NCBI GenBank assembly: GCA_028702535.1
Contig: JAQVOR010000011.1
Location: 1 to 44,192 of the forward strand
Source: Bacteroidales bacterium
GTDB taxonomy: Bacteria > Bacteroidota > Bacteroidia > Bacteroidales > ML635J-15
Direction of reading: 5' to 3'
DNA length: 44,192 nucleotides
A model generated the notes under the pieces. The model was not told the origin of the DNA, searched no databases, and saw only the letters and a list, made by a program, of their open reading frames with translations. Position 1 is the first letter of the stretch; every line of letters begins with the position of its first letter. This document shows positions 811 to 21,177 of this stretch, in pieces. The position numbers were made by a program, and so were the translations under genes.

Positions 811-828
811 TTGTTAATAAAATAACAT
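811..828 (+). promoter_or_regulatory. Candidate Rex operator TTGTTAA-TAAA-ATAACAT
   Basis: Arms TGTTA/TAACA (812-816/823-827) around a central spacer, resembling the Rex consensus TTGTTAANNNNTTAACAA with two mismatches in the right half. It abuts the -33 box, and a rex gene lies in the same operon. Confidence 0.45.
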
Positions 829-877: not shown

Positions 878-1324
878 ATGGAAAAATACATTTCAAAATT
901 ACCAGATAAAGTGTATAAGCATGAGTTACTCTCCTATTTACAAGAATTTCAGGATATGTTTGGTTATATTGATTTGTCGTTTATTGAAGTACTAAGTAAG
1001 AACTCTGGTATTCCATCGGGTAAAATATTTGGCATTACATCTTTCTACAACCAATTTAGGTTTAAGCCAAAAGGCAAATTTCACATTCAAGTATGCGAGG
1101 GTTCGTCATGTCATGTAAATGCAGAAATAGGACTTATTGAAGATATAAAGAAACTAATAAAGGCTGATGAAAAAGACACAAGTAACGATGGTTTATATAG
1201 TCTTGAGATTATACCCTGCATGGGTGCTTGCTCACAAGGACCTGTGATTTCAATTAATGGGAAATTTCACACAAAAGTTTCCAAAGAAGATATAAAAAAA
1301 ATATTTTCTGACTTGAATTTATAA
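878..1324 (+). CDS. NuoE/HydC-like thioredoxin-fold [2Fe-2S] subunit (NADH oxidoreductase 24 kDa type)
   Basis: Cluster cysteines VCEGSSC...IIPCMGACSQGP; N-terminal helical NuoE-type domain. Confidence 0.9.
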   Translation: MEKYISKLPDKVYKHELLSYLQEFQDMFGYIDLSFIEVLSKNSGIPSGKIFGITSFYNQFRFKPKGKFHIQVCEGSSCHVNAEIGLIEDIKKLIKADEKDTSNDGLYSLEIIPCMGACSQGPVISINGKFHTKVSKEDIKKIFSDLNL

Positions 1325-1325
1325 C

Positions 1326-3236
1326 ATGAAGAACTTAAAAGACAAGACATATAAAACACTTTTTATTGATGCTGTGGAGCTTGAAAAAGCCCCTCAATAT
1401 TCTAAGCCTGTCGAAATGCCACATATTTATGTAGAGCGTAATACTGGGAGCATCGTTTCTGGAATAGACGCTACAATACAGTATATAAAAAAGTATTTTG
1501 ACAAGGACGAAAATTACAAATTAATTGAAACTGGCAGTTTAGGGATAAGCTCATTTGATCCAGTTATTGGCATACAAATCCATGGGCGTCCATTGATCTT
1601 CTTCAAAAATGTTACATTCAGTTATGTTAGTACAATTCTTGATAGCATTTTAAATCATATTTTACCTGAATCAGACTTTATATTAGGACAAATATCTCAT
1701 ACAGGATTAAGCTCGTGGGCGGATGTCCCCGAACTATATCAACTTGATATTTTTGCAAAACAAAACCGTCGTATATTAAAAAACTTCGGACTTATTCAAC
1801 CCGATTTTATTGAATCATACATAGATTATGACGGCTATAAAGCCTTTGCAGAAACGATTACAAGAAAAACGGCAGCAGAAGTATGTAACATCATCGAGAA
1901 AAGTGGCTTACGAGGTCGCGGAGGTGGAGCATTTAACACAGGAAAGAAATGGCAAAAGGCTTTAAATACTGGTAAATCACAAAAATATTTCATCTGTAAC
2001 GCTGACGAAAGTGACCCAGGGTCTTTCTCAGGCAGACTTTTGGCTGAAAACAATCCTCATCTAGTAATTGAAGGGATTTTAATTGGGGCTTATGCAGTTA
2101 ATGCACGCAAAGCATTTATATATATTAGAAACACTTATACTCTGGCAATAGAGAGATTAGAAAACGCTCTGTTTCAAGCTCAAAAAGCAGGTCTTACTGG
2201 CGAAGATATTTTTGGTAGCGGAATTAATATCGAAATCGAAATCTTTAAAGGTCCAGGAGCTTATGTTTGTGGCGAAGAAACAGCTCTTATTGCAAGTATG
2301 GAAGGTGAAAGAGGTACGCCTAAACCAAAACCTCCTTATCCATCAGAAGATGGCTTGTTCGGACAACCTACAGTTGTTAATAATATCGAAACAGTTTGTA
2401 ATGTCCCATATATCCTCAATTATGGTGGTGATGAGTTTCAAAAAGCCGGATTAAATAATTCGTTTGGAACCAAACTATTTTCTATAAGCGGAAAAACTGA
2501 TATTACTGGTGTAATTGAGATTGACTTAGGAACAAGTGTAGCCGAAATCATGGACATTTGCATTACTAAACAACGCCAACCCGAAATTAAAGCGGTTCAT
2601 ATTGGTGGCCCTTCAGGGGGTTTTATTGACCCCGATAAATTTTCGATTAACTTAGACTATGAAACTGCAATAGATAATAAATTAGGGCTGGGGTCTGGTA
2701 GTTTTTTAGTTTTAGATAAAACAAATTGCATAATAGATATTACAAAATATTTTATAAAGTTTATAAATAACGAAAGTTGTGGCAAATGCATACCTTGTCG
2801 CGAAGGCTCGCAAAGACTATTGGAAATTCTTAACAGAATATCTGAAAAACCATCAGAGTATAACAAACACGAATCATTATTAAGATTCAAAGGCGTTACA
2901 CAATTAGAGCAAATTTCGAGTTTAATGCAAAAAACATCTCTCTGCGGACTTGGTCAAAATGCTCCAAATACAATTTTGAGCGGATTATTAAGGTTTAGAC
3001 AAGAATATGAAGAACACATTTATGAGAGACAATGCGAAGCCAATGTATGTCGTAACTTAAAAGAATATTATGTCGTAGTCGATAATTGTGTAGGTTGCGG
3101 AATATGTGCAAAAAAATGTCCTGCCGATGCTATTATTGGCACAGAACATCAAGCTCACTTTATTATTCAGGACAGATGCATCAAGTGTGGAGTTTGCGAA
3201 GCATCTTGTAAATTTAATGCAATAATGATAAAATAA
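1326..3236 (+). CDS. NuoF/HydB-like NADH-binding flavoprotein subunit with C-terminal 2x[4Fe-4S] ferredoxin domain
   Basis: FMN motif GRGGGAFNTGKKW; NADH motif GPGAYVCGEETALIASMEGERG; N3-type SCGKCIPCREG...CGLG; C-terminal CVGCGICAKKCP and CIKCGVCEASC. Confidence 0.93.
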   Translation: MKNLKDKTYKTLFIDAVELEKAPQYSKPVEMPHIYVERNTGSIVSGIDATIQYIKKYFDKDENYKLIETGSLGISSFDPVIGIQIHGRPLIFFKNVTFSYVSTILDSILNHILPESDFILGQISHTGLSSWADVPELYQLDIFAKQNRRILKNFGLIQPDFIESYIDYDGYKAFAETITRKTAAEVCNIIEKSGLRGRGGGAFNTGKKWQKALNTGKSQKYFICNADESDPGSFSGRLLAENNPHLVIEGILIGAYAVNARKAFIYIRNTYTLAIERLENALFQAQKAGLTGEDIFGSGINIEIEIFKGPGAYVCGEETALIASMEGERGTPKPKPPYPSEDGLFGQPTVVNNIETVCNVPYILNYGGDEFQKAGLNNSFGTKLFSISGKTDITGVIEIDLGTSVAEIMDICITKQRQPEIKAVHIGGPSGGFIDPDKFSINLDYETAIDNKLGLGSGSFLVLDKTNCIIDITKYFIKFINNESCGKCIPCREGSQRLLEILNRISEKPSEYNKHESLLRFKGVTQLEQISSLMQKTSLCGLGQNAPNTILSGLLRFRQEYEEHIYERQCEANVCRNLKEYYVVVDNCVGCGICAKKCPADAIIGTEHQAHFIIQDRCIKCGVCEASCKFNAIMIK

Positions 3237-3239
3237 AAT

Positions 3240-4874
3240 ATGACAATAACTTGTTACATAAATAACACTAAACAAAAAGCAGATAGCAATGAAACAATTC
3301 TATCTGTTCTAAACAGGATTGGGATATCCATACCCACCCTATGTAACATGAAAGAACTTAGTCCAACAGGAGCATGTAGGCTTTGTGTAGTTGAAGATGC
3401 AGAAACTGGAGAGCTTATTACCTCATGTTCTACTCCGGTAAGAGAAAATATGAAAATTTTTACTCACTCACCCGAAGTCATAAATGCACGTAAAACAATT
3501 ATAGAATTATTACTTGCAAATCATCCCGAAAATTGTCTTTATTGCGATAAAAGTGGAAATTGTGAGTTACAAAAACTCTCCGAAGACTTAAATATTCGAG
3601 AAAAAGTTTTTTATGGCGATTTAATGAGTAGAAAAACTGACCGCTCAAGTCCAGGTATAGTCCGCGACATGTCAAAATGTATTTTATGTGGACGATGTGT
3701 TAGAATTTGCGATGAAATATTGGGAATTTCAGCTATTGATTTAATAAATAGAGGCAAAAACACTAGCATAGAGACTGTTTTTCAAAAAGGTTTATTTTAC
3801 TCCGATTGCATTCATTGTGGTTTATGTGTTACAGCATGTCCAACAGGAGCCATTATGGCAAAATCCAGCATTAATCAGGTTATCGAAAAACTCGGAAATA
3901 ACAAAACGACAAAGAGTATAATGATACCCACTACGACAATCGCTAATATTGCTGTAAGTTATAATATTCGCAAATATGAAGATGCACGTAATATGCTTGT
4001 TGCAGCCTTGCACAGTATTGGATTTAACAAGGTTTACCCAATGTCATTATTCAACGACTTTTTTATTAGTGAGGCTACATCAATCATCCAAAACAGATTA
4101 AAAAACTCACCACAACCATTGATTATTACCGATTGTCCAGCAATTAAAAAATATATACAGATAAAAGAACCCGAACTTGTTGAGTTTTTGTGCAAGATTC
4201 CTGCCCCACAACAAATTGGAGCAAAAATACTGTCAATGCAAGAATCTACAGACTTACTGATGAGTGTTAGCCCATGCATTGCTCACAAATACGAAGCTGT
4301 TCAAACACAAAATACAAACAAAGGAGTACCCGAAATAGACTTTGTACTAACCTCCGATGAACTTGATAAACTACTAAAAACCTTAGGTATAACATTACCG
4401 TTTACACGAAAAGAAACACCCGACAATCCAGCAAACTCAGACTCATCTGCTGGTGTGTTTTTTGAAACTAAACATGGAATTACCGAAGGAATTGTACGAG
4501 AGTTATTTCATCGCTCCGATTTAAGTGTTCAACTCAATCGAATAATTGAAATCAAACCCGAAAAGGACTTTATTGAATATGAGTTTGAAATAAATAAAAC
4601 ATACTATAGTGTAGCTTGCATATCAGGTATTGAAAACCTAGTTAAATACAAAAAACAAATATTGCAGGGAAACTATCTGTTTGTAGAAGTACGATCATGC
4701 AAATCGGGTTGCATCGATGGGTGTGGACAAAAGCTCACTGATAGTCAGGATAGCCAAAAACGTTTGAGAAAGACATTAAGCGAATATGATGAAAAAACAA
4801 GTAATAATACGCCTGGAAAAAATCCATTTATAAAAGGATTTTATAGAAACAATAAACTAGGAAACATATTTTAA
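3240..4874 (+). CDS. [FeFe]-hydrogenase HydA-like subunit (NuoG-type N-terminus plus H-domain) with divergent active-site motifs
   Basis: N-terminal [2Fe-2S]; HPENCLYCDKSGNCELQ (His-Cys cluster); CILCGRCVRIC and CIHCGLCVTACP; H-domain motifs L1 ITDCPAI, L2 SPCIAHKYEA, L3 EVRSCKSGCIDGCGQK. Confidence 0.88.
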   Translation: MTITCYINNTKQKADSNETILSVLNRIGISIPTLCNMKELSPTGACRLCVVEDAETGELITSCSTPVRENMKIFTHSPEVINARKTIIELLLANHPENCLYCDKSGNCELQKLSEDLNIREKVFYGDLMSRKTDRSSPGIVRDMSKCILCGRCVRICDEILGISAIDLINRGKNTSIETVFQKGLFYSDCIHCGLCVTACPTGAIMAKSSINQVIEKLGNNKTTKSIMIPTTTIANIAVSYNIRKYEDARNMLVAALHSIGFNKVYPMSLFNDFFISEATSIIQNRLKNSPQPLIITDCPAIKKYIQIKEPELVEFLCKIPAPQQIGAKILSMQESTDLLMSVSPCIAHKYEAVQTQNTNKGVPEIDFVLTSDELDKLLKTLGITLPFTRKETPDNPANSDSSAGVFFETKHGITEGIVRELFHRSDLSVQLNRIIEIKPEKDFIEYEFEINKTYYSVACISGIENLVKYKKQILQGNYLFVEVRSCKSGCIDGCGQKLTDSQDSQKRLRKTLSEYDEKTSNNTPGKNPFIKGFYRNNKLGNIF

Positions 4875-4875
4875 T

Positions 4876-6867
4876 ATGATAAAAATTAGTGAAAAACAAC
4901 CCTTAGTCTTTACTATCGCCGATAGGTGTAAAACTTGCTATACCTGTATCAGAGAATGTCCTGCAAAAGCTATTAGCATGCAAAATGGACAAGCAAATGT
5001 AATTGTCGAAAGATGCATTGGGTGTGGAAATTGTGTAAAAGTATGCACCCGTAAAGCCAAGAGTTTTTATAACGAAGAACAGCAAGTTTTACATCTTCTT
5101 AAAACTAGTAAAAATTGTATTGCATGTATTGCTCCAGCTTTCCCTGCTGAATTTAAAGAATTTGAAGACCACAAAATTGTAGTAGGGATGTTAAAAAAGC
5201 TTGGTTTCGATAAAGTTGTTGAAGTCTCTTTTGGTGCAGACCTAGTGGCTATGAAATATGAAGAACTTCTACTAAATGAAGCTCACAAAAAATATATCTC
5301 AAGCGACTGCCCAGCAATTGTTTCATATATAACTAAATACTACCCACAACTAACAAAATCTTTAGCTCCAATTGTTTCTCCACTAATGGCTATTGTAAGA
5401 GTTGTTAAAGAACTCTACGGTAAAGATCGTGAAACTGTATTTATTGGACCTTGTATAGCAAAAAAGACTGAATCTGATGACCCTGATTATGTGCTAACAT
5501 TTAAGGAAATTCGAAATATGTTTGAAACAGAAAACATTAAAGCCGAAGACTGTGAGCCGTCTGAGCTTGACCCACCACATGGTGGTAGAGGTGCAGCATT
5601 TCCTATAAGCAGGGGACTGATTAATACTATAAATATCCAAGAGAATCTTATTCAAGGGAATATTATAGTTGCAGAAGGTCGAGAAAACTTTAAAGAGGCT
5701 ATCAATGAATTTGATAATGGATATATCGATGATCATAATTTGGAACTGCTTTGCTGTGAAGGATGTATTATGGGACCTGGGATGTTCTCTGAAGGTAAAC
5801 GATATCAAAACAGAGCTTATATAACTCGTTATGTCAAAAGAAAACTTGACAATCTAAATATACAGGATTGGGAAAACAATTTTAGTAGGTTTCGTAATAT
5901 TGATCTTAGTCGTGAGTTTTCACAAGATGATAGTAGAGTTAAGGTTCCTACCGAAGAGGAAATTGAAGCACTATACCATGAAATGGGAAAACACGACAAG
6001 CAAGATAGGCTAGACTGTCATGCGTGCGGGTATGAATCTTGTAGAGAACATGCAATAGCGGTACTACGAGGCCTTGCTGAAGTGGATATGTGTTTACCTT
6101 ATACTTTAGATAAATTAAAAAATATGGTAAACGAGCTTAACACAAAAAATACAAAGCTCGAAACTGTGCAACAAGCACTTAAACAAAGCGAAAAACTAGC
6201 ACACCTAGGACAACTAGCTGCAGGAATAGCACACGAAATAAACAACCCTCTTGGAGTTGTAATTATGTATGCAAACATTATGCTCGATGAAACAGATCCC
6301 AATGAAGAGGCTTATGAAGATTTAAAATTGATAACAGAGCAAGCAATGCGCTGCAAAAACATTGTTAGTGGCTTATTAAATTTTGCCAGAAAAAACAAAG
6401 TAAAGTTCACATCAATAAATATTTCAGAATTTATTAACAATTGCTTAAAAGCAGTAATTATACCTAGCAATATTGAGGTTGAACAAAAATGCTATTTAAG
6501 TAACTTTAACACATCTATTGATGAAGAACAAATGACACAGGCAATTACTAATATTATAAAAAATGCTATCGAAGCTATGCCAGATGGTGGCAAACTTAAT
6601 ATTGAGCTAAGTAATGAAAAAGAAAATGTGAAACTAATTTTTCAAGATACGGGAACAGGTATAAAAGAGGTTGATAAAGATAAACTATTTACACCATTTT
6701 TTACAACTAAAGAATTTGGCAAAGGTACAGGACTTGGACTCCCTACAACTTATGGAATAATTAAAATGCACAAAGGTAAAATTCATGTCGATTCAAATAG
6801 TAATCCTCAAAAAGGAAAAACGGGAACAAAATTTACAATAACTTTACCACAACTAAACGAAAATTAA
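4876..6867 (+). CDS. H-domain sensor histidine kinase: 2x[4Fe-4S] ferredoxin, [FeFe]-hydrogenase-like domain, 4Fe-4S (CxxCxxxxC...C) domain, HisKA-HATPase
   Basis: CKTCYTCIRECP, CIGCGNCVKVC; H-domain SDCPAI / GPCIAKKTE / CCEGCIMGPGM; CHACGYESC...MC; LAAGIAHEINNPLG and GTGLGL kinase motifs. Confidence 0.9.
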   Translation: MIKISEKQPLVFTIADRCKTCYTCIRECPAKAISMQNGQANVIVERCIGCGNCVKVCTRKAKSFYNEEQQVLHLLKTSKNCIACIAPAFPAEFKEFEDHKIVVGMLKKLGFDKVVEVSFGADLVAMKYEELLLNEAHKKYISSDCPAIVSYITKYYPQLTKSLAPIVSPLMAIVRVVKELYGKDRETVFIGPCIAKKTESDDPDYVLTFKEIRNMFETENIKAEDCEPSELDPPHGGRGAAFPISRGLINTINIQENLIQGNIIVAEGRENFKEAINEFDNGYIDDHNLELLCCEGCIMGPGMFSEGKRYQNRAYITRYVKRKLDNLNIQDWENNFSRFRNIDLSREFSQDDSRVKVPTEEEIEALYHEMGKHDKQDRLDCHACGYESCREHAIAVLRGLAEVDMCLPYTLDKLKNMVNELNTKNTKLETVQQALKQSEKLAHLGQLAAGIAHEINNPLGVVIMYANIMLDETDPNEEAYEDLKLITEQAMRCKNIVSGLLNFARKNKVKFTSINISEFINNCLKAVIIPSNIEVEQKCYLSNFNTSIDEEQMTQAITNIIKNAIEAMPDGGKLNIELSNEKENVKLIFQDTGTGIKEVDKDKLFTPFFTTKEFGKGTGLGLPTTYGIIKMHKGKIHVDSNSNPQKGKTGTKFTITLPQLNEN

Positions 6868-6869
6868 AT

Positions 6870-7262
6870 ATGAAAACAAATAGAATAATTCTTTTAGCTG
6901 ATGATGATTTCGATTATTTGTTTCAAACAAAATTTCGTCTCGAGACTGCTGGTTTTACTGTAATTACTGCAAGTTCTCAAAAAGAAGCCGAACAATTAAT
7001 TGAAATTGGCGGTTTTGACGCTGCGGTTTTTGATCTTATGATGGAAAACGATGATAGTGGTTTTATACTTGCATACAAAACAAAAAAATTGCATCCAAAT
7101 ACTCCAGTTATTATTTCTACCGCAGTTACTGCCGAAACAGGATATAAATTCGATACTGATAATTCGTGGATAAAAGCAGATTTATATCTTGAAAAAGGTG
7201 TTGAATCAGAAAAAATTGCAGAAGAGTTAAAAAAATTATTAAAATCTCAAAATTATGGATAA
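6870..7262 (+). CDS. Stand-alone response regulator receiver protein
   Basis: Receiver fold: ILLADDD, AVFDLMM (phospho-acceptor Asp), YLEKG; no output domain. Confidence 0.87.
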   Translation: MKTNRIILLADDDFDYLFQTKFRLETAGFTVITASSQKEAEQLIEIGGFDAAVFDLMMENDDSGFILAYKTKKLHPNTPVIISTAVTAETGYKFDTDNSWIKADLYLEKGVESEKIAEELKKLLKSQNYG

Positions 7263-8373
7263 ATTAAAAATCTTAGTAGTTGACGACGAGTTTGGGATTA
7301 GATCAGGCATTAAACGAATAATAGAAAAATTCGAAGTTGATTATCCTTTTATGGACGAACCAATAGGATTCGAAGTAAGCGAAGCCGAAACTGGCGAAAT
7401 AGCTATTGAAAAGATAAAAGCAGAGAACTTTCATATAATTTTGCTTGATAACAAACTGCCTGGAATACAAGGAGTTGATGTGCTCGAATATATTAACGAA
7501 CAAGAAATCGACTCAAAGGTCATAATGATTACCTCGTATGCCTCACTCGAACTCGCAGTAAAAGCAACTAGACAAGGAGCAATTGATTTTGTCCCAAAAC
7601 CATTTACCCCACAGGAGTTAAGAGCGTCAATCGAAAATATTACTAAGCAGCTCTTCTTAAAACAAATGACTTCTAAATTACAAAAAGAAGGAAAACATAT
7701 AAGATTTCAATTTTTATCACTTTTATCGCACGAGTTAAAGTCGCCCGTCAATGCTGTCGAAGGATATCTTAAAATCATCAAAGAACAAAAGAACGGTAAA
7801 TATGTTGCCGATTACCTCCCAATGATTGATAGATCAATTGAGCGTTTAAACGCAATGAGAGGTATGATAATGGATTTGCTCGATTTAACAAAAATAGAAT
7901 CTGGACAAGCAAAAAGAAACCCAGTACCAACCGACATAGGAGAAGTAGCAAAAACCTGCATCGCTTCAATCAAACCAATGGCAATACAAAAGGATGTAAA
8001 CATTTATCTTAACTATAACACTAAAATAATATATGATTTTGATATAAACGACTTAGAAATTGTGTTGAACAATATCTTTTCAAATGCTGTCAAATACAAC
8101 AAAAATGGTGGTAGAGTCGATTGTACAATTCGAGAATTTACAAATAAAGTTGAAATAATAATCGCTGATACTGGAATAGGAATAAGCAAAGAAGATCAAA
8201 ACAAACTTTTTAAAGAATTTGTAAGGATAAGAAACAAAGAAACAAGCAAAATCCCTGGAAGCGGTCTTGGATTATCTATTGTAAAAAAAATCCTCGAAAA
8301 TTACGATGCCGAAATAATACTGAATAGTGAGGTAAACAAAGGTACAAAAGTGACAATAACTTTAACTAAATAA
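7255..8373 (+). CDS. Receiver-histidine kinase hybrid
   Basis: Receiver ILVVDDE...IILLDNKLPG...VPKPF, followed by LLSHELKSPVNAVEGY and HATPase motifs (FSNAVKYN, DTGIGIS, GSGLGLSIVKKI). Overlaps the previous gene by 8 nt. Confidence 0.9.
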   Translation: MDKLKILVVDDEFGIRSGIKRIIEKFEVDYPFMDEPIGFEVSEAETGEIAIEKIKAENFHIILLDNKLPGIQGVDVLEYINEQEIDSKVIMITSYASLELAVKATRQGAIDFVPKPFTPQELRASIENITKQLFLKQMTSKLQKEGKHIRFQFLSLLSHELKSPVNAVEGYLKIIKEQKNGKYVADYLPMIDRSIERLNAMRGMIMDLLDLTKIESGQAKRNPVPTDIGEVAKTCIASIKPMAIQKDVNIYLNYNTKIIYDFDINDLEIVLNNIFSNAVKYNKNGGRVDCTIREFTNKVEIIIADTGIGISKEDQNKLFKEFVRIRNKETSKIPGSGLGLSIVKKILENYDAEIILNSEVNKGTKVTITLTK

Positions 8374-8377
8374 ATTT

Positions 8378-9001
8378 ATGCTACCTGAAAAAACAGTTGA
8401 AAGATTAAGCATGTATCGCCGAGTCTTACAAACATATCAAGATAATAAAAGTGAATTTATTTATTCACATGAACTTGCAAGTCTTTTGCATTTAACCCCT
8501 GTACAAGTGCGTCGCGATATTATGCTAATAGGTTATACTGGCACTCAGAGAAAAGGGTATTCTGTTAGAGAACTAATCGAAAAAATTAGTCAAATATTAG
8601 ACGGCGGGGCACAAATAAATGCTGTTATCGTTGGTATGGGGCATCTTGGTAAAGCCATTACCAATTATTTTAACTCAAAACGCAGTAAAATTGAAATTGT
8701 TGCAGCGTTTGAAAATGATGCTACAAAAATTAATAGGATTATTTCAGGAATTAAATCCTATCACACCGATAGCCTCGAAACAATTCTCGAAGACACTCAT
8801 GCTACAATTGCCATACTTTCACTTTCGCCTCCCGAAGCACAAGATATTACAGACCGACTTGTGTTCGCAGGAATAAAAGGAATACTCAATTTTACTTCAA
8901 TTCCGCTTAATGTACCAGAAGATGTCTTTCTTGAAAACTACGACATGGTTACATCAATAGAAAAAGTTGCTTACTTTGTAAAAGAAAAAATAAAAAAATG
9001 A
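8378..9001 (+). CDS. rex: Redox-sensing transcriptional repressor Rex
   Basis: Winged-helix with TPVQVRRDIMLIGYTGTQRKGYSV, then Rossmann NAVIVGMGHLGKAI and the C-terminal Rex region (GIKGILNFTSIPLNVPEDV). Confidence 0.93.
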   Translation: MLPEKTVERLSMYRRVLQTYQDNKSEFIYSHELASLLHLTPVQVRRDIMLIGYTGTQRKGYSVRELIEKISQILDGGAQINAVIVGMGHLGKAITNYFNSKRSKIEIVAAFENDATKINRIISGIKSYHTDSLETILEDTHATIAILSLSPPEAQDITDRLVFAGIKGILNFTSIPLNVPEDVFLENYDMVTSIEKVAYFVKEKIKK

Positions 9002-11490: not shown

Positions 11491-13353
11491 ATGCAAAATA
11501 AACCATTGATAAGCATCGACAAAGAATTGTGTACTCACTGTTACGCTTGCGTAAGGGCTTGCCCAACTAAAGCTATTACAACAGGGTCTAAATCAAGCGA
11601 TATTATAATAAATCACGATAGATGTATTGGTTGTGGCAATTGTTATGTCAGTTGTGGACCCAAAGCGATTAAATATGCACAATCAATTGAAGAAGTCTCC
11701 AAACATCTATCAGATAAAAATAAATGCATCGCAATAGTTGACCCATCGATTGCATCAGAATTTCCCGACATCTCTGATTATCGTAATTTTGTAGGTATGT
11801 TCAGAGCATTAGGTTTCGATTATGTAAACGAGATTTCTTTCGGAGCCGATCTTATTGCAGCAAAATACAAAGAAACTTTTACAGATTTTAAAGGCAAATA
11901 TATAATTACAGCAAATTGTCCTCCTGTTTACGAATATATCGAGAAGTTTCAGCCAAACATAACAGATTCTATTGCTAAATTGGATAGCCCGATGATAGCA
12001 ACCGCTAAAGTTATGCGTGAAATACACGGAGACCAAGCAATAATAGTTGCAATAAGCTCTTGTTTAGCACAAAAAAAAGAGATTTTACGATATAATGGAC
12101 TCATAAATGAACATATTGGCTTCGAAGAGCTTCGTACTATGTTCAAATCAAACAATATTTATGAAAATTCTGTTGAATTTAGCGAATTTGACCAACCAAT
12201 AGGCTCCAAAGGATCACTTTTTCCAATAAGTAGAGGAATACTTGATGCCGCCGATATAGATCATACGCCAGGAAAATCAAAAATTATTACACGAGAAGGA
12301 CCAGATAACTTTGTGAAAAACATACTTGATTTTGCAAATTATAATGAAATTAAGCATCACCTGAATATTTTTTACTGTTACGGGTGTAATATGGGACCTT
12401 GCTCCTCTTATACATCAAGTTATCTGTTAAATCACAGCCAAGTGATTAATTATTACAACAAACGACAAGAACTTCTTGATGAAGAAACATGGAATAAAAA
12501 TATTAAAAAATATTTAAAACTTGACTTCACTCGCAATTATACAATAGACGACCAACGAATAGCTCCGCCTTCCGATAAAAAAATTAAAGAAGTTCTAAAA
12601 TTACTTGGAAAAGATATATATACCGATGTAGGGTGCAAAAGTTGTGGATACGATAATTGCTTCGAGTTTGCAAGTGATGTCGCAAAAGACTTAGTAAAAC
12701 CAGAGATGTGCATTAGTTTCACTTTAAAAAACAGACAAGAATTTATAAATAAACTAACTGCAACAAATATAAAACTTGCCGAAACACAAAAAGCATTAGA
12801 AGTGTCCGAAGCCAAGTTGCGTAAGGATCATGCTAATGTGAAAGAAAGCATGTCCTTGACAAAAGCTATACTCGAAAAAATCCCCTCGGGTGTTGTTATT
12901 GTTGATGATAAACTAAAAATCATACAATCCAACACACAATTTATTGAACTAATTGGTAAAGAAGCGAAAGAAATAAACGAGATAATACCTGGTTTAATCA
13001 ATGCCGATATTAAAACTTTATTGCCACATCAAATATATCAGCTTTTTAGTTTTGTTATTCAGAAAAACGATAATGTAGAAAATAAAGATATCGAATTTGA
13101 AGATAAATTACTAAATATCTCTGTGTTTCCAATAAAAAAAGGGAAAATCATCGGAGCGGTTTTTAAAAATCTATATCAACCCGAAATAAGAAAAGAAGAG
13201 GTAATAGCACGTATCAACGATGTTATTGAAAAAAACTTAGGAATGGTTCAAAAGATAGGATTTTTACTAGGCGAGGGAGCCTCCGAGACAGAAAGAATGC
13301 TAAATAGTATCATTCACTCGTATGACAGCAACAAAAATGAGGAAGAAAAATAA
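11491..13353 (+). CDS. HydS-like sensory protein: 2x[4Fe-4S], [FeFe]-hydrogenase-like domain, 4Fe-4S domain, PAS domain
   Basis: CTHCYACVRACP, CIGCGNCYVSC; H-domain TANCPPV / ISSCLAQKKE / FYCYGCNMGPC; VGCKSCGYDNC...MC; PAS-like ILEKIPSGVVIVDDKLKIIQSNTQFIELIG. Confidence 0.87.
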   Translation: MQNKPLISIDKELCTHCYACVRACPTKAITTGSKSSDIIINHDRCIGCGNCYVSCGPKAIKYAQSIEEVSKHLSDKNKCIAIVDPSIASEFPDISDYRNFVGMFRALGFDYVNEISFGADLIAAKYKETFTDFKGKYIITANCPPVYEYIEKFQPNITDSIAKLDSPMIATAKVMREIHGDQAIIVAISSCLAQKKEILRYNGLINEHIGFEELRTMFKSNNIYENSVEFSEFDQPIGSKGSLFPISRGILDAADIDHTPGKSKIITREGPDNFVKNILDFANYNEIKHHLNIFYCYGCNMGPCSSYTSSYLLNHSQVINYYNKRQELLDEETWNKNIKKYLKLDFTRNYTIDDQRIAPPSDKKIKEVLKLLGKDIYTDVGCKSCGYDNCFEFASDVAKDLVKPEMCISFTLKNRQEFINKLTATNIKLAETQKALEVSEAKLRKDHANVKESMSLTKAILEKIPSGVVIVDDKLKIIQSNTQFIELIGKEAKEINEIIPGLINADIKTLLPHQIYQLFSFVIQKNDNVENKDIEFEDKLLNISVFPIKKGKIIGAVFKNLYQPEIRKEEVIARINDVIEKNLGMVQKIGFLLGEGASETERMLNSIIHSYDSNKNEEEK

Positions 13354-13355
13354 AC

Positions 13356-14540
13356 ATGGCTGAAAATCTTTACATAGAAGTAGATGTTAAACAAATAAAT
13401 CATGAAAATGAAAAAATTTGTGGCGATGTCTTTCTTAAACGCCGCATAAAAGAAGATAACCGAATTATTGCAGTTTTAAGCGATGGAATGGGACATGGAG
13501 TTAAAGCTAATGTATTGGCAACACTCACTTCGACAATGGCATTAAACTTTACTACAGAGCATCGAAAACCAGAACGAATCGCTGAGATCATTATGAACAC
13601 TTTGCCAGTTTGTAGCGAAAGAAGAATTTCATACTCAACTTTTACGGTTGCGGATCTTGAAATTGACGGAAAGGTGCATTTGTTAGAATACGATAACCCT
13701 CCAGCTTTAGTTTTTCGCAATAATCAAATCTTACAGCTCACAAGAGAGGTTATCGAAATGAAAACTCCTCAACATCAAGGAAAAAAACTAACATTTACAA
13801 GTTTTTATCCCAAATTATACGACCGCATTGTGTTTTTTAGCGATGGGGTTACACAATCTGGTATGGGTACCGAAAAATATCCGTTTGGCTGGGAAAACTC
13901 CAATATTGAAGAGTACATTCTACGATTATTAGAAAACAACAAAGATATTTCGGCTGGCAAACTCGCCGAAAAAGTTGTTAATAAAGCAGTTGCAAACGAT
14001 ATTTATAAATCCAAAGACGATACTTCATGTGCCTCAATATATTTTAGAGAGCCTCGAAAACTTTTGATAGTTACTGGACCTCCTATTGAAAGATCGAGCG
14101 ATAAGGAATTAGCCCAAATCGTTAAAAATTATAATGGCAAAAAAATTATTTCGGGAGGCTCTACAACCGACCTTGTCGCAAGAGAACTAAAATTAAAAGT
14201 AACAGATTCGTTGGATTTTCTTGATCCAGAACTTCCGCCAATATCATACATGGAAGGAATAGACTTAGTTACCGAAGGCATACTTACGCTCAACAAAGTT
14301 TGGAAAATCCTTACAGCTATGGCACACGATTTTGTCCCTGGCAAAGGTCCAGCCGACCAAATTGTAAAACTTATTATGCAAAGTGACCATATTGATATTA
14401 TTGTAGGGACCAAAATAAACGAAGCCCATCAAGACCCAAATGTACCTGTTGATCTTGAAATAAGACGTACAATTGCAGGTAGAGTCGCTAATGTTTTAGA
14501 ATGTAAATTGCTAAAACATATTACGCTAAGACACATTTAA
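13356..14540 (+). CDS. SpoIIE-family PP2C-type serine phosphatase with uncharacterised C-terminal domain
   Basis: CGDVFLKRR...IIAVLSDGMGHGVKANVLA...; IVFFSDGVTQSG; DDTSCASIYF. Confidence 0.87.
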   Translation: MAENLYIEVDVKQINHENEKICGDVFLKRRIKEDNRIIAVLSDGMGHGVKANVLATLTSTMALNFTTEHRKPERIAEIIMNTLPVCSERRISYSTFTVADLEIDGKVHLLEYDNPPALVFRNNQILQLTREVIEMKTPQHQGKKLTFTSFYPKLYDRIVFFSDGVTQSGMGTEKYPFGWENSNIEEYILRLLENNKDISAGKLAEKVVNKAVANDIYKSKDDTSCASIYFREPRKLLIVTGPPIERSSDKELAQIVKNYNGKKIISGGSTTDLVARELKLKVTDSLDFLDPELPPISYMEGIDLVTEGILTLNKVWKILTAMAHDFVPGKGPADQIVKLIMQSDHIDIIVGTKINEAHQDPNVPVDLEIRRTIAGRVANVLECKLLKHITLRHI

Positions 14541-14825: not shown

Positions 14826-15554
14826 CTACCAATCTTTTTCAACAATTCGTTGCTGCATTTTAAATTTTTCTTTCTTTACTTTATCTTGCACGTCTTTTTC
14901 TTGTTGTTGTAGTGATTCTAAGAAGCGTTCCATTTCTTCGCGGGTCATTTCGTTATCTTTTGGTTGAGGCTGTTTTTGCTGTTCTTGTTTCTGCGCTTCA
15001 TTTTGCTGATCCTCATTTCCTTTACTTTCATCTTTATTCTCATCGCCCTCTTTTTTATCTTTCTGATCCTGATTATCTTCACCCTCGCCATCGCCTTGCT
15101 CTTGGTCTTGTTGCTGCTGCTGTTGTTGCTGCTCTTTTACTTTTGTTGCAACTGCCATATTATAACGGCTCATATCATGTTCAGGATCCATACGCAATGA
15201 ATTTCGGTAAGCTTCAATACTTTTCTTATAATCGGCTGCCTGAAGATATGAATTACCAATATTATAAAACGCATCGGCTTTTTCCTTTTTGGAACCTGTC
15301 ATTTTAAGAAAGTTTTCGTAATTCATTGCCGACTCATTAAACATGCCATTCCGATATTGAGATGCACCAATATTATTTAATAGTTGATGAGACTCTGGAT
15401 TTATTTTATAGGCTTTTTTATAATTAAGAGCCGATTTGTCAAAATCTTTGGTATTATAATATTCATTTCCTTCACGAATAATTTTTCGTTCTTCCTGCGC
15501 ATTAGTAAAAATTGTCAGGCTTAACAACAATAATAATATATATATATACTTCAT
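14826..15554 (-). CDS. batC: BatC-like TPR protein with Gln-rich C-terminal tail
   Basis: Signal peptide, TPR repeats (NEYYNTKDFDKSALNYKKAYKINPES...; DAFYNIGNSYLQAADYKKSIEAYRNSLRMDPEH), QQQQQQQQ tract; downstream of batA/batB. Confidence 0.82.
   Translation of the reverse strand: MKYIYILLLLLSLTIFTNAQEERKIIREGNEYYNTKDFDKSALNYKKAYKINPESHQLLNNIGASQYRNGMFNESAMNYENFLKMTGSKKEKADAFYNIGNSYLQAADYKKSIEAYRNSLRMDPEHDMSRYNMAVATKVKEQQQQQQQQDQEQGDGEGEDNQDQKDKKEGDENKDESKGNEDQQNEAQKQEQQKQPQPKDNEMTREEMERFLESLQQQEKDVQDKVKKEKFKMQQRIVEKDW
15111..15134 (-). repeat. CAG/CAA trinucleotide tract encoding poly-Gln in the BatC-like protein
   Basis: ttgctgctgctgttgttgctgctc on the plus strand. Confidence 0.85.
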
Positions 15555-15579
15555 AAACTTTTAAATATTTTATATGTTT

Positions 15580-16617
15580 TTAGACCCAATGTTTTTTTTT
15601 CTTAAATAAATTTATTCTACTTAAAACTGAATTTTTCTTTTCCGAAATAATAATATCCACTAAAAGCAGTATAAGAGCCAAAAGAGCAAGATATTGAAAC
15701 TGGTCTGCATATTCGGAATAATTTTGTTTAAGCACCTCTCCTTTTTGGAGTTTTCCTATTTCATTAATAATTTTATCAGACGCATCGGCAGAATTACCAG
15801 CCCTCACATAAACGCCGCCAGTTTCGTCAGCAATAGAAATCAAAGTTTGTTCGTCCAAAACGCTGATAACAACATTACCATCACGATCTTTCATAAATCC
15901 GCCACCTCTTTTCTTAGGAATTGGAGCTCCGCCTGGCAATCCCATTCCAACTGTATAGATACTAATATTTTTCTCTTTTAGTGTTTTAGCAATCTCTACA
16001 GCATTATCTTCGTGATTTTCGCCATCAGTAATAAGTAAAATAATTTTAGATATTTCCTCTTCTTTAGTAAATGATTTTGCTGCTAAATCAATAGCTTTAG
16101 CAATAGCAGTACCTTGCACAGGCACACTTTCCGTGTCAATTGTTGATAAAAATAATCTTGCAGAGCGAACATCATCAGTAATCGGCATTTGCACAAAAGC
16201 ATCTCCTGCAAAAACAATTATTCCAAGTTTATCATTTTCAAGTTTACTAATTATTCTTTCTGTAAATTTGCGTGCATTTTCAAGTCTATTAGGTTTTATA
16301 TCTTGTGCCAGCATAGAATTAGAAACATCTAAGGCAACGACAATCTCAACTCCTTGTCGAGTAACATCATTAAGTTTTGATCCAAATTGAGGTCGTGCAA
16401 GTGCTACCGACATTGATACAATAGCAACACAAATAAGTACAAGTTTCCAAATCCGTCTAATAATACTGGTTTCGGGAATTAATAAATTTACCAACTTATG
16501 GTCACCAATTTTTCTCATACGTTTTCGACGAATATATTCGGCTAGCAAAAACAAGAGTACCACTATTGCAGTACTTGCTATCAGCCATAAATATTGTGGT
16601 TCTTGAAATCTAAACAT
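15580..16617 (-). CDS. batB: BatB-like VWA domain protein
   Basis: VWA MIDAS EIVVALDVSNSMLAQDIKPNRLENARKF; N-terminal membrane helices. Confidence 0.9.
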   Translation of the reverse strand: MFRFQEPQYLWLIASTAIVVLLFLLAEYIRRKRMRKIGDHKLVNLLIPETSIIRRIWKLVLICVAIVSMSVALARPQFGSKLNDVTRQGVEIVVALDVSNSMLAQDIKPNRLENARKFTERIISKLENDKLGIIVFAGDAFVQMPITDDVRSARLFLSTIDTESVPVQGTAIAKAIDLAAKSFTKEEEISKIILLITDGENHEDNAVEIAKTLKEKNISIYTVGMGLPGGAPIPKKRGGGFMKDRDGNVVISVLDEQTLISIADETGGVYVRAGNSADASDKIINEIGKLQKGEVLKQNYSEYADQFQYLALLALILLLVDIIISEKKNSVLSRINLFKKKKHWV

Positions 16618-16620
16618 ATC

Positions 16621-17613
16621 TTAAAATGTATTTTTTAATAATGTAAAATTTAATATTTGTTCAAAAAGTATTATCGCCAAAACTATCAACAATATCAATC
16701 CAAACTCTTCTTTTGGTTGCGAATACAATCTAACCTCAAGCTGCGTTTTTTCAAGAGAGTCTATTTCTGTATAAATATCTCTCATGCTCTTATTATCTGT
16801 TGCCCTAAAATACTTTCCTCCAGTTGATTGTGCAATTTGCTCCAACATATCTTCATCAATTTTCACTTCTACATTTTGATATTGAATTCCAAAAGCAGTT
16901 TGAAAAGGATAAGGTGCCATTCCTATTTTACCAACGCCCACAGTATAAACTCTAATTCCAAACTCGACTGCAAATTCGGCGGCTGCTAAAGGAGATATTA
17001 TACCCATATTGTTCACTCCATCAGTTAATAAAATAATTACTTTACTTACCGCATCAGAATTTTTAAGTCTGTTTACTGCTGTTGCAAGTCCCATTCCTAT
17101 TGCTGTTCCATCTTCAATTACCCCACTTTTAACCTCACTAAACAAGTTCATAAGCACTGCATGGTCAATTGTAAGCGGACATTGTGTATAACTTTCGCCA
17201 GCAAAAATAACAAGTCCAATTCTATCATCGGGACGGCTCGAAATAAATTCCATTGCTATTTCTTTAGCTGCCTCTATCCTATTTGGTTTAAAATCTTCGG
17301 CGAGCATACTCCCACTAACGTCTAATGCCATAACAATATCAACGCCTTCAATTTTTCTATCTTCCCACTTATCGGTACTTTGAGGTCGTGCAAGCACTAT
17401 TATAAGCCCCGCAACTGCAAGTAAACGCAAACCAAAAAGAAAATGTCGCAAATAATATTTCCAAGGAGTTGGAGTTTTTTTAAATGCACTCAAGCTACTA
17501 ATATTCATTGATGCTGCGTTCTTTTTCAAACGCCACACATACCATGCAATTGCAGGGATAAGTAACAATAGCAACCACAAATATTCCTTATTAGCAAATA
17601 TAATATTATCCAT
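16621..17613 (-). CDS. batA: BatA-like VWA domain protein
   Basis: VWA MIDAS DIVMALDVSGSMLAEDFKPNRIEAAKEI; ILLTDGVNNMG; flanking membrane helices. Confidence 0.92.
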   Translation of the reverse strand: MDNIIFANKEYLWLLLLLIPAIAWYVWRLKKNAASMNISSLSAFKKTPTPWKYYLRHFLFGLRLLAVAGLIIVLARPQSTDKWEDRKIEGVDIVMALDVSGSMLAEDFKPNRIEAAKEIAMEFISSRPDDRIGLVIFAGESYTQCPLTIDHAVLMNLFSEVKSGVIEDGTAIGMGLATAVNRLKNSDAVSKVIILLTDGVNNMGIISPLAAAEFAVEFGIRVYTVGVGKIGMAPYPFQTAFGIQYQNVEVKIDEDMLEQIAQSTGGKYFRATDNKSMRDIYTEIDSLEKTQLEVRLYSQPKEEFGLILLIVLAIILFEQILNFTLLKNTF

Positions 17614-19048
17614 TAGTTTCGTCTTTTTGTGTATCCTTAGAATTACTTAATGTCTGTTGAGTTTCCTCATTGGGCATTTCTATTTCTGCCTCTACTTTTA
17701 TCTCTTTTAAGTTTTCTTCGATAATTTCTTTTGTCGATTCTACAAACTCAAAAGCATTTCGCAAAGCAAGGTCGTTCTCATTTTGTAAAGCTTGATATTT
17801 TGCAAATTTAACAGCATCAGCAATTTCGAGTATTTGTCGCAACTTCATAAAATCCGTATCCACAATAACATTTTCGACTCCAAATGCCTCAAGTATTTCG
17901 GAGCTTGTCATTTCGACAGCATAAATACCAAATCTATTCTCAATATATTCACGAACGACATCGGTTAATTGCACATGAAACTCTTTAATTTGCCCTTTTG
18001 CCCATATTTTTTGATTACGGATATTTTCGAGTTTTTCAAGTGCGATAATATGTGCCGGAAGTTGAGGTTTAATTCTTAAAAATGTTGGTTTAATATCTTT
18101 TCTATAATATTTAAAGAAATATATTATTGCACCCACAACAATTAACAACAATGCAAGTGCCCACCAATACTTTGCCAAGTATATTTTAAAATAATACCAA
18201 AACTCTGCCAAGTTAAACGGAGTATTATATAACTCATCGTTAATATCTTTTATTCGATATAAAGTAAACAATGGTTGGTTTTGTTGCACTTGTTGATATT
18301 CTTGCACAAACACTGTATCTACAGAGCCTGCAACAATAAAATCTTCGGCTATTCCGCCCTTATCAACAATAAACATTTTTTGAGTTGAAGATTCGGCAAT
18401 CTTTAATATCTCTTCCTGATTATACAAACCTGTGTGTTGCGTAAGCTCTGATGAAAACAACTGAGTAAGATGTTCTTTCATTGCTTCTTTTATAATAATA
18501 AGACTGTCAGATGACACTGATTGCTTAATAGAATCTGGGATGTATTTTTCAATTTCCTTTTTAAATCCATCTTTACCAAAAGCTATAAATCCAGAGCGAT
18601 TTGCATAAATAGTGTCCACAGGAATAGTATCCAACAAGACATAAGGTTTTACAAAAATGCTGATTGAATCTGTAATATAATAATTAGTGTCTGCATTTTC
18701 GACAATCATAAAAGGAATTCCGGCGACAACATTTCTGCCAGTATCAAAAGATGTAACAAGAATGTTTTTATTATATATTCTATAATTATCGTCTTCGCTA
18801 ATTTTTGTTTTACTATCGAGCAGCACCTCTACTTGAGACGAAAGCGTGTCTTTATATTCGGGGAATAATAGCTCAAGATGTTTTGGCAAATTAGCCTCAA
18901 TATTCACTGCATTATGTTCGCCAACTATAATTGTATCTTTATCAAATTTTGCTGATAAGTTAAACTCCTGTGCATCAACAAGATTTACAGTAAAAATCAG
19001 CAATAACAGAACAAATAAATTGCGAATATTTTTATTATTTACGTTCAT
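17606..19048 (-). CDS. Bat-operon membrane protein (DUF4381-like C-terminal part, BatD-like N-terminal part)
   Basis: Signal peptide; TM segment; PAHIIALEKLENIRNQKIWAKGQIKEFHVQLTDVVREYIENRFGIYAVEMTSSEIL; position between DUF58 and batA; 8-nt overlap with batA. Confidence 0.75.
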   Translation of the reverse strand: MNVNNKNIRNLFVLLLLIFTVNLVDAQEFNLSAKFDKDTIIVGEHNAVNIEANLPKHLELLFPEYKDTLSSQVEVLLDSKTKISEDDNYRIYNKNILVTSFDTGRNVVAGIPFMIVENADTNYYITDSISIFVKPYVLLDTIPVDTIYANRSGFIAFGKDGFKKEIEKYIPDSIKQSVSSDSLIIIKEAMKEHLTQLFSSELTQHTGLYNQEEILKIAESSTQKMFIVDKGGIAEDFIVAGSVDTVFVQEYQQVQQNQPLFTLYRIKDINDELYNTPFNLAEFWYYFKIYLAKYWWALALLLIVVGAIIYFFKYYRKDIKPTFLRIKPQLPAHIIALEKLENIRNQKIWAKGQIKEFHVQLTDVVREYIENRFGIYAVEMTSSEILEAFGVENVIVDTDFMKLRQILEIADAVKFAKYQALQNENDLALRNAFEFVESTKEIIEENLKEIKVEAEIEMPNEETQQTLSNSKDTQKDETNG

Positions 19049-19087
19049 AAGTCAATATATTTCAACACGTAACAAATCATTTTAATA

Positions 19088-19951
19088 TTACCTTTTCTTA
19101 AACAAACTAACAAGCGGTTTAACATAATCTTGGCCTGTATTTACTTCAACCCAATCGACTTTTGCTTTACGAAATATAGTAGTATTAGCATCATATTGTT
19201 TATCCCACCATTTTTTGTAATTACTGCGTACCTTGGGCGATGTAGTATCAACCCATTTTAGTTGTCCAGTCTCGTTATCTTTAAAATATGCCAAACCGAT
19301 TTTTGGAAGCGTCTGTTCAAAGCTATCGTGCAATCTTATAGCAGCGACATCATGTTTATTTCCAGCAATTTTAATAGCTTCGGAAAAATCGGGAGCAATA
19401 AAATCTGATATTACAAATGCTGTGCATCTTTTCTTAATTGCGTTTGTCAGATATTTTAGTGCTTCGGTAATATCGGTTTTTTGGCTTTGTGGTTCAAAAT
19501 TCAATAATTCCAAAATAATACGCAAAATATGTTTACGTCCTTTTTTTGGTGGGATAAATTTTTCGACACGGTCGGAGAATAATATTACACCGATTTTATC
19601 ATTATTTTGCAAAGCCGAAAACGCAAGGACAGCAGAAATTTCTGTTGCTACATCCTGCTTAAACTGTACATTAGTTCCAAATTTTTTTGAACCACTAACA
19701 TCAATAAGCAACATAACAGTTAATTCGCGTTCTTCCTCAAAAACTTTTACATAAGGATGATTAAATCTAGCGGTAACGTGCCAATCTATGTCTTTTACGG
19801 GGTCTCCATATTGATATTCACGCACCTCGCTAAAAGCCATACCTCTACCTTTGAAAGCAGAATGATATTCGCCAGCAAAAACCTGACTTGTCAGTCTGCG
19901 ACTTTTAATTTCAATCTTTCTTACTTTTTTTAATAAATCTTTTGCTTCCAT
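19088..19951 (-). CDS. DUF58 domain protein
   Basis: GRGMAFSEVREYQYGDPVKDIDWHVTARFNHPYVKVFEEERELTVMLLIDVSGSKKFG is DUF58-characteristic. Confidence 0.93.
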   Translation of the reverse strand: MEAKDLLKKVRKIEIKSRRLTSQVFAGEYHSAFKGRGMAFSEVREYQYGDPVKDIDWHVTARFNHPYVKVFEEERELTVMLLIDVSGSKKFGTNVQFKQDVATEISAVLAFSALQNNDKIGVILFSDRVEKFIPPKKGRKHILRIILELLNFEPQSQKTDITEALKYLTNAIKKRCTAFVISDFIAPDFSEAIKIAGNKHDVAAIRLHDSFEQTLPKIGLAYFKDNETGQLKWVDTTSPKVRSNYKKWWDKQYDANTTIFRKAKVDWVEVNTGQDYVKPLVSLFKKR

Positions 19952-20014
19952 AAAGGATTAGTTTTCAAATAATCAATTTTCGATACACACTTCTCAATTT
20001 TAAAAAATTGTTTT

Positions 20015-21010
20015 TTATGGCACCTCAACACTATTGAGAATTTCGCTAATTATTTCTTCGCTGGTAATATTTTCGGCTTCTGCTTCGTAAGTTAATCCAA
20101 TACGATGACGCAAAACATCATGGCAAACTGCTCTAATATCTTCGGGAATAACATATCCTCTACGTCTAATAAAGGCGTAAGCTTTGGCAGCTAATGCAAG
20201 ATTTATTGAGGCACGTGGAGAACCACCAAATGAAATCATGCCAATCAATTTAGAAAGCTCATATTTTTCGGGATAACGAGTAGCAAAAACAATATCAAGT
20301 ATATATTTTTCGATTTTTTCGTCGAGATAAACTTCTCTAACTATATTACGTGCTCTAATAATATCCTCTGTTTTAATTACTGTATTAGCTTTTGGCATTT
20401 CGCTCTTAAGATTTTCTCTTATAATTAAGCGTTCTTCCTCAAACTCAGGATATTCAATTTTTAATTTAAGCATAAATCTGTCCACCTGTGCTTCGGGAAG
20501 TGGATAAGTACCTTCTTGCTCGATTGGATTTTGGGTTGCCATTACTAAAAACGGTTTATCCATTTTATAAGTCGTATCACCAATTGTAACCTGACGCTCT
20601 TGCATTGCCTCAAGCAAAGCCGATTGTACTTTCGCTGGAGATCTATTAATCTCATCGGCAAGAATAAAGTTTGCAAAAATGGGTCCTTTTTTAACAATAA
20701 ACTCTTCCTTTTTTTGAGAGTAAATCATTGTTCCAATTAAATCGGCAGGTAACAAATCGGGAGTAAACTGTACTCTTGCAAATTTTGCATTAATTGTAGT
20801 TGCTAATGTATTAATTGCAAGGGTTTTTGCCAGTCCAGGAACCCCTTCAAGTAAAATATGTCCATCAGATAAAAGACCTATCATAAGTCCCTCAAGTAAA
20901 TGACGTTGTCCCACAATTACTTTTTTCATCTCCATGTTGACAATATCAACAAAAGCACTTTCTTGTTGAATACGCTCGTTTAATTCCTTGATGTTTGTGT
21001 TATTATCCAT
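20015..21010 (-). CDS. moxR: MoxR-family AAA+ ATPase (start trimmed from 21091 to MDNNTN... at 21010)
   Basis: ILLEGVPGLAKTLAINTLA Walker A; FILADEINRSPAKVQSALLEAMQERQVT; ATQNPIEQEGTYPLPEAQVDRF. Confidence 0.93.
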   Translation of the reverse strand: MDNNTNIKELNERIQQESAFVDIVNMEMKKVIVGQRHLLEGLMIGLLSDGHILLEGVPGLAKTLAINTLATTINAKFARVQFTPDLLPADLIGTMIYSQKKEEFIVKKGPIFANFILADEINRSPAKVQSALLEAMQERQVTIGDTTYKMDKPFLVMATQNPIEQEGTYPLPEAQVDRFMLKLKIEYPEFEEERLIIRENLKSEMPKANTVIKTEDIIRARNIVREVYLDEKIEKYILDIVFATRYPEKYELSKLIGMISFGGSPRASINLALAAKAYAFIRRRGYVIPEDIRAVCHDVLRHRIGLTYEAEAENITSEEIISEILNSVEVP

Positions 21011-21177
21011 AGCTAAATTATTTAATTTTAATGTTCTAAAATCTGCACGAAAATACATGAAAAATGAATTTTTGTCAAGACTTAAACGCAATTTTTATCT
21101 TATATATTTGTTAAAAATGTTAAAGTGGTGTTAAATAACATATTTAAAAACCCCCTAAACTTGCTACATAGCCTTAA

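Follow-up and report, generated by a model that had tools for sequence, protein, structure and literature searches.

A HydA-like subunit with replaced diiron-pocket residues in a Bacteroidales operon that also encodes a HydS-type histidine kinase

The window analyzed here, a whole stretch of 44,192 nucleotides from a Bacteroidales genome (contig JAQVOR010000011.1), encodes a HydA-like subunit (HydA') in which the ligands of the iron-sulfur relay and of the H-cluster cubane are intact and the residues of the diiron pocket and of the proton path are replaced. Judged from its sequence, HydA' has probably lost the diiron site, and the HydABC-like trimer that contains it (HydABC') may, with roughly even confidence, serve as an NAD(H)/ferredoxin-linked electron antenna with a cubane-only H-domain for the histidine kinase-fused HydS (HydS-HK) of the same operon. 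The features of the window are collected in Table 1.

Table 1. Features of the window, with positions counted from its first nucleotide.
Feature	Position	Strand	Remarks
Rex-operator-like palindrome TTGTTAATAAAATAACAT	811..828	+	67 nt 5' of the hydC start codon; the motif match alone is weak, with 2.0 expected in the window
HydC/BfuC (NuoE-like)	878..1324	+	[2Fe-2S] cysteines 4/4 intact
HydB/BfuB	1326..3236	+	636 aa; FMN domain and B1-B4 cysteines intact
N-terminal thioredoxin-like segment of HydB	1434..1550	+	Cluster B5 cysteines 0/4
HydA-like subunit HydA'	3240..4874	+	544 aa; NuoG-like N-terminus followed by H-domain
L1 motif ITDCPAI (IITDCPAI)	4125..4145	+	D298 = CpI C299; C299 = CpI C300
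L2 motif SPCIAHK (SVSPCIAHKYEA)	4269..4289	+	S344 = CpI M353; C346 = C355; H349 = K358
L3 motif EVRSCKSGCIDGCGQ	4686..4730	+	R485 = CpI M497; C487 = C499; C491 = C503; C495 = new Cys at G507
HydS-type H-domain fused to histidine kinase (HydS-HK)	4876..6867	+	H-cluster motifs intact including K358; C-terminal FeS motif
Single-domain response regulator	6870..7262	+	
Receiver-histidine kinase hybrid	7255..8373	+	
Rex, NADH/NAD+-sensing repressor	8378..9001	+	No other Rex of the genome passes the cut-off
Second HydS-like H-domain protein (PAS-type HydS; group C-like, without kinase domain)	11491..13353	+	K358 = Gln; extra Cys after C503
SpoIIE-type phosphatase	13356..14540	+	Adjoins PAS-type HydS order-wide
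Aerotolerance (Bat)-type cluster	14826..21091	-	TPR protein, two BatA/VWA, DUF58, MoxR ATPase
DUF3584 protein	35665..39363	-	1232 aa; large coiled-coil ATPase type

Identity, pocket residues, and conservation of HydA'

Over its full length, HydA' matches group A HydA in sequence comparison, and its nearest solved relatives are T. kivui HydA1 (E=2e-90), T. maritima HydA (TmHydA; 5e-79), and CpI (3e-63), with A. woodii HydA also ranking ahead of CpI. Among the NCBIfam models, the nearest is FeFe_hydrog_A6 with 401 bits, below its cut-off of 765, and FeFe_hydrog_A reaches 208 bits, below its cut-off of 406, both values being those of HydA' alone. The HydC-HydB-HydA subunits with NuoE/F/G-like domains and the four cubane cysteines correspond to HydABC of group A3, from which HydA' departs in its pocket residues (C299, M353, K358, M497, and P231), its proton path, and its score against the curated family. 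HydA' also lacks the fused PAS or kinase domain and the C-terminal cysteine (FeS) motif of group C HydS, and the group C/D sensors TmHydS and TamHydS lack its NuoG-like N-terminus.

Residues of HydA' are numbered after CpI, and CpI and TmHydA served as alignment references. All 16 Cys/His ligands of the N-terminal relay are intact, and the L1, L2, and L3 motifs occur in the open reading frame as the earlier note had read them by eye. The alignment likewise confirms that the four cysteines of the [4Fe-4S]H cluster remain (C300, C355, C499, and C503) and that the proton-relay cysteine, both methionines near the diiron site, and the cyanide-contacting lysine are replaced by Asp, Ser, Arg, and His, respectively (C299D, M353S, M497R, and K358H), the canonical residues being supplied nowhere else in HydA'. 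In CpI, K358 makes contact with one of the diiron cyanides. Beyond the changes that the note lists, others surround the diiron position (P231T, G418E, G421H, and G507C, the last introducing a new cysteine), and E279A, E282I, and S319C remove the proton path of group A. Q325 is kept. AF2 models of HydA' built with 6 and 16 sequences reached mean pLDDT values of 60 and 67, with the L3 loop below 50, so that the geometry of the pocket, such as a D299-R497 salt bridge, is beyond judging; fold matches of the low-confidence model were the same proteins as those of the sequence search (HydABC HydAs and CpI).

The operon is present with a HydA at 55-90% identity in eight further species of the same genus and at 43-44% identity in two other genera of the family, the compared genomes being species representatives and many of them MAGs, and several genomes of the same genus lack the hydA' gene. 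D299, R497, and C507 are invariant in all nine congeneric species, position 358 is His in seven and Asn in two, and 26 of the 87 H-domain columns that are conserved in operon relatives are replaced throughout this nine-species clade. The dN/dS of the H-domain is 0.055-0.081 against the two nearest relatives, similar to that of the other operon genes, which indicates that the gene is maintained and rules out a pseudogene; with the substitutions fixed in nine species and the dN/dS this low, the pocket pattern reflects neither chance nor one bad MAG. In the tree, the nine-species clade is nested inside near-canonical Bacteroidales operon HydAs (support of 96/94 and 99/97, with long stems) and adjoins the family's two other genera, in which K358 has also been lost (Arg and Ala).

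Altered residues at C299, M353, and M497 and along the proton path are shared with TmHydS and TamHydS, which turn over H2 with other residues at these three pocket positions (PMC10055695, PMC8163306), CaHydA C298D keeps about half of its kcat (PMC3485046), and the CpI C299D variant is known as a crystal structure, so that no single change in HydA' proves the loss of the diiron site. The case therefore rests jointly on K358H, the charged Arg497, the changes at P231, G418, and G507, and the lost proton path, fixed within the genus. A complete but re-tuned H-cluster, which would make HydA' a slow H2-binding sensor like TmHydS with His in place of Lys and Asp in place of Cys, is an unlikely alternative that has several points in its favor: C299D alone among the replacements leaves CaHydA active (PMC3485046), HydS proteins with altered C299, M353, and M497 accept a diiron site (PMC10055695, PMC8163306), the cubane cysteines and Q325 are kept, the genome contains maturase genes, and a His at position 358 could still hydrogen-bond a cyanide. 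It is opposed by the loss of K358 in HydA' next to a HydS-HK that has kept it, by the Arg at M497 in 9/9 congeners, by the simultaneous change of P231, G418, G507, and the proton-path residues, and by the 26 clade-wide replacements. Unlike HydA', TmHydS and TamHydS also retain the hydrogen-bonding partners of the [2Fe] unit (PMC10055695).

Pocket residues in operon-type and stand-alone HydAs

The comparison set comprised 81 HydAs of the operon type and, from the phylum, 24 that stand alone, including two from the genome of the window; the operon-type rows include a few duplicates, and their genomic context was read at about forty loci and assumed by similarity for the rest. The 16 relay ligands, C300, C355, and C503 are present in all 81 operon-type HydAs, and C499 is present in 80. 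K358 is retained in 57 of the 81, C299 in 51, E279 in 32, M353 in 57, and M497 in 66, compared with 24/24 stand-alone HydAs at each of these five positions. After the window's family is left out, four of the differences persist, and Fisher's test, which ignores relatedness, gives p values of 3.5e-7 for E279, 0.0025 for C299, 0.018 for M353, and 0.034 for K358. On a quick tree with several long branches, at least ten state changes are counted at position 358, nine at 299, and five at 497. By these residue counts and tree changes, the diiron pocket erodes repeatedly in operon-type HydAs, while the FeS relay and the cubane are under strict constraint. A search of the openly licensed literature found no report of a HydA diiron pocket being stripped repeatedly within such operons, an absence that is itself uncertain.

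Besides HydA', the genome of the window encodes two HydAs whose pockets are canonical, together with HydF and two HydG-family proteins, and on their sequences the H2 chemistry of the organism is covered elsewhere in the genome. Both HydG-family proteins, on contigs C27 and C179 (L071 and L072), score above the cut-off; the second is perhaps a radical-SAM relative instead. Seven of the 24 stand-alone HydAs, like A. woodii HydA1, have Ser in place of C300, a variant of the TSCSP type that has been described as common (PMC11406978). The one operon-type HydA with a substituted C499 (C499F, L039) was rejected as a loss of a cubane ligand, since it lies on a MAG contig with in-frame stops in four neighboring genes and may be a sequence error. 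In this contig (PKTB01000021; L039/L123), in-frame TAG/TAA codons occur in the genes for RibF, UDP-glucose dehydrogenase, PAS-type HydS, and SpoIIE, and are probably base errors of the MAG.

Operon context and a possible redox input to HydS-HK

The gene order hydC-hydB-hydA-hydS(HK)-RR-RRHK-Rex is conserved across Bacteroidales, together with the PAS-type hydS and the SpoIIE phosphatase, at a HydA identity of about 40% across the order, and hydC-hydB-hydA-hydS(HK)-RR is also found in a distant class of the phylum. Genes for a RibF-like protein and a UDP-glucose dehydrogenase lie between rex and the PAS-type hydS in the window. HydS-HK has the features of group C HydS, namely, two [4Fe-4S] clusters, an L1-L3 H-domain with K358, a C-terminal FeS motif, and a signaling domain; its motifs read SSDCPAIV, GPCIAKK, and CCEGCIMGPG, and K358 and the cubane cysteines are kept in every HydS-HK read. 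A scan of viral contigs for relatives of HydA' found none.

In the proposed mechanism, NAD(H) and ferredoxin would still exchange electrons with HydB and HydC, from which the unbroken relay of HydA' would lead to an H-domain that holds the [4Fe-4S] cubane only, without a diiron subsite. The cubane would then be a docking or exit site toward HydS-HK, a contact suggested by synteny alone, and HydS-HK would change its redox state, and with it its kinase activity, according to how far the NADH and ferredoxin pools are reduced. The kinase would signal to the products of the downstream receiver and hybrid-kinase genes, while the Rex of the same operon would read NADH/NAD+ directly. The sequence changes, their conservation, the selection on the gene, the operon, and the contrast with stand-alone HydAs are direct observations; we infer the absence of the diiron site, the contact with HydS-HK, and the direction and purpose of electron flow. 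The earlier note had suggested a non-H2-evolving HydABC-like trimer acting as an electron relay or sensor. Four observations favor that direction: the operon itself, the repeated loss of the pocket in HydAs of this operon type only, an FeS relay without a missing ligand, and stand-alone HydAs with canonical pockets in the same genome. The note's argument from the cysteine and the two methionines is weak by itself, given the active sensors and CaHydA variant cited above.

HydB of the window has none of the four cysteines found at the B5 position of A. mobile HydB, whereas all four occur in the genome's own stand-alone HydB (C47) and three in most HydBs of Bacteroidales operons. Of the six clusters by which Bfu is defined (B1-B5 and C1), the ligands of B1-B4 and C1 are thus present and those of B5 are absent, which implies that the bifurcation core has also changed, although the need for B5 in Bfu is disputed (PMC11406978). 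The B5 ligands of HydB have been lost independently in several families (L097, L099, L106, L111, and L195-L199), whether or not the accompanying HydA has lost K358. The raw Spearman correlation between pocket loss and B5 loss is 0.45 over 47 loci, and a tie between the two losses is not significant when phylogeny is considered (6 independent pairs).

The PAS-type HydS beside SpoIIE (in the window and in L094-L125 and L190-L203) lacks K358 order-wide, with A, N, T, Q, S, and others in its place, and in the window's family it has gained a cysteine at the position of CpI G508 (GCNMGPC); by its sequence, it is a candidate for another cubane-only H-domain. A pocket rebuilt as a different active site, in which D299, H/N358, R497, E418, and C507 surround the cubane and the complex, like other enzymes of Bfu type 1, links NAD(H) and ferredoxin to a non-H2 third substrate, is quite improbable. 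The new residues are indeed conserved (D299, R497, and C507 in 9/9; H358 in 7/9), the family's PAS-type HydS shows a parallel gain of a fifth cysteine, and substrates other than H2 are used by roughly half of the Bfu complexes (PMC9304861), but the operon brings no extra domain or obvious substrate gene, the H-domain fold appears unchanged in the models, B5 of HydB is lost, and the losses in other families yield unrelated residues (R, S, G, and M), which looks like a relaxed need rather than new chemistry. Distinctly unlikely, too, is a broader version in which the emptied HydA' pocket (D299, H/N358, R497, E418, and C507) and that of the PAS-type HydS (K358Q and the extra Cys after C503) have both been rebuilt as non-hydrogenase redox or metal sites, the operon being a redox sensor with three H-domains, only one of which can still see H2. 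Very improbable is a HydABC' in which electron transfer is irrelevant, whether it serves HydS-HK structurally or as a decoy or is a vanishing relic: the gene is missing from several genomes of the same genus and HydA, HydB, and HydC diverge faster than HydS-HK, but the FeS relay ligands of HydA are kept in 81/81, HydB and HydC retain the FMN domain and the B1-B4 and C1 ligands, and hydA' is under strong purifying selection.

With regard to the role of Rex in the antenna model, hydC is preceded by a Rex-like palindrome at a distance of about 50-100 nt in many operons of this type (including L097, L099, L107, L112, L114, L121, and L123-L125). The genome contains three perfect Rex-like palindromes, one of them just upstream of hydC in the stand-alone C234 hydABC and the other two not before genes of evident redox function. 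Genome-wide, Rex-like palindromes are not enriched over a reversed-pattern control, so that the C234 site is a lead and not proof, and TTGTGAA-type Rex operators in the window are at chance level. The operon's Rex, the only one to pass the cut-off genome-wide, and the palindrome before hydC fit a role in NADH sensing.

Relation to known systems and neighboring loci

The window shares with group A3 HydABC (Bfu type 1; T. maritima, A. woodii, and T. kivui) the hydC-hydB-hydA order, the subunit domains, the HydA relay clusters, the cubane cysteines, and the B1-B4 and C1 ligands. Unlike group A3, its diiron pocket and proton path are replaced, the B5 ligands of HydB are absent, and the genes are encoded with HydS-HK, receiver genes, and Rex. 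In BfuABC sub-types IV and V of Hydrogenedentota, the HydABC genes are likewise accompanied by a HydS-type protein, the group C3 'T' subunit, whose H-domain is combined with a PAS or histidine kinase domain (PMC11406978). In contrast to HydA', motifs P1-P3 of the Hydrogenedentota BfuA are generally conserved, and pocket loss of such a scale is unreported there (PMC11406978). More widely in the Bfu family, HydABC cores serve many third substrates (PMC9304861). Operons that combine HydABC with a group C3 HydS are therefore already known from Hydrogenedentota, and the repeated stripping of the pocket within such operons is apparently new. The eukaryotic Nar1/NARF proteins are hydrogenase-like without a diiron site and keep the H-domain for [4Fe-4S] clusters without H2 chemistry; likened here by description only, they differ from HydA' in their role in cytosolic Fe-S protein assembly and in having no HydBC partners.

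If the antenna model is true, cubane-only HydA-like H-domains arose repeatedly in one type of bacterial operon, and a bifurcating hydrogenase came to supply a two-component system with its redox input. The series from canonical to stripped pockets would then be a natural guide to which residues the diiron site really needs, the question of HydS signaling would become directly testable via its electron source, and caution would be due in counting every metagenomic HydABC operon as evidence of H2 metabolism.

Outside the operon, the Aerotolerance (Bat)-type cluster adjoins it in the window, and the DUF3584 protein is encoded amid smaller genes, in a locus that is possibly defense-related or condensin-like.
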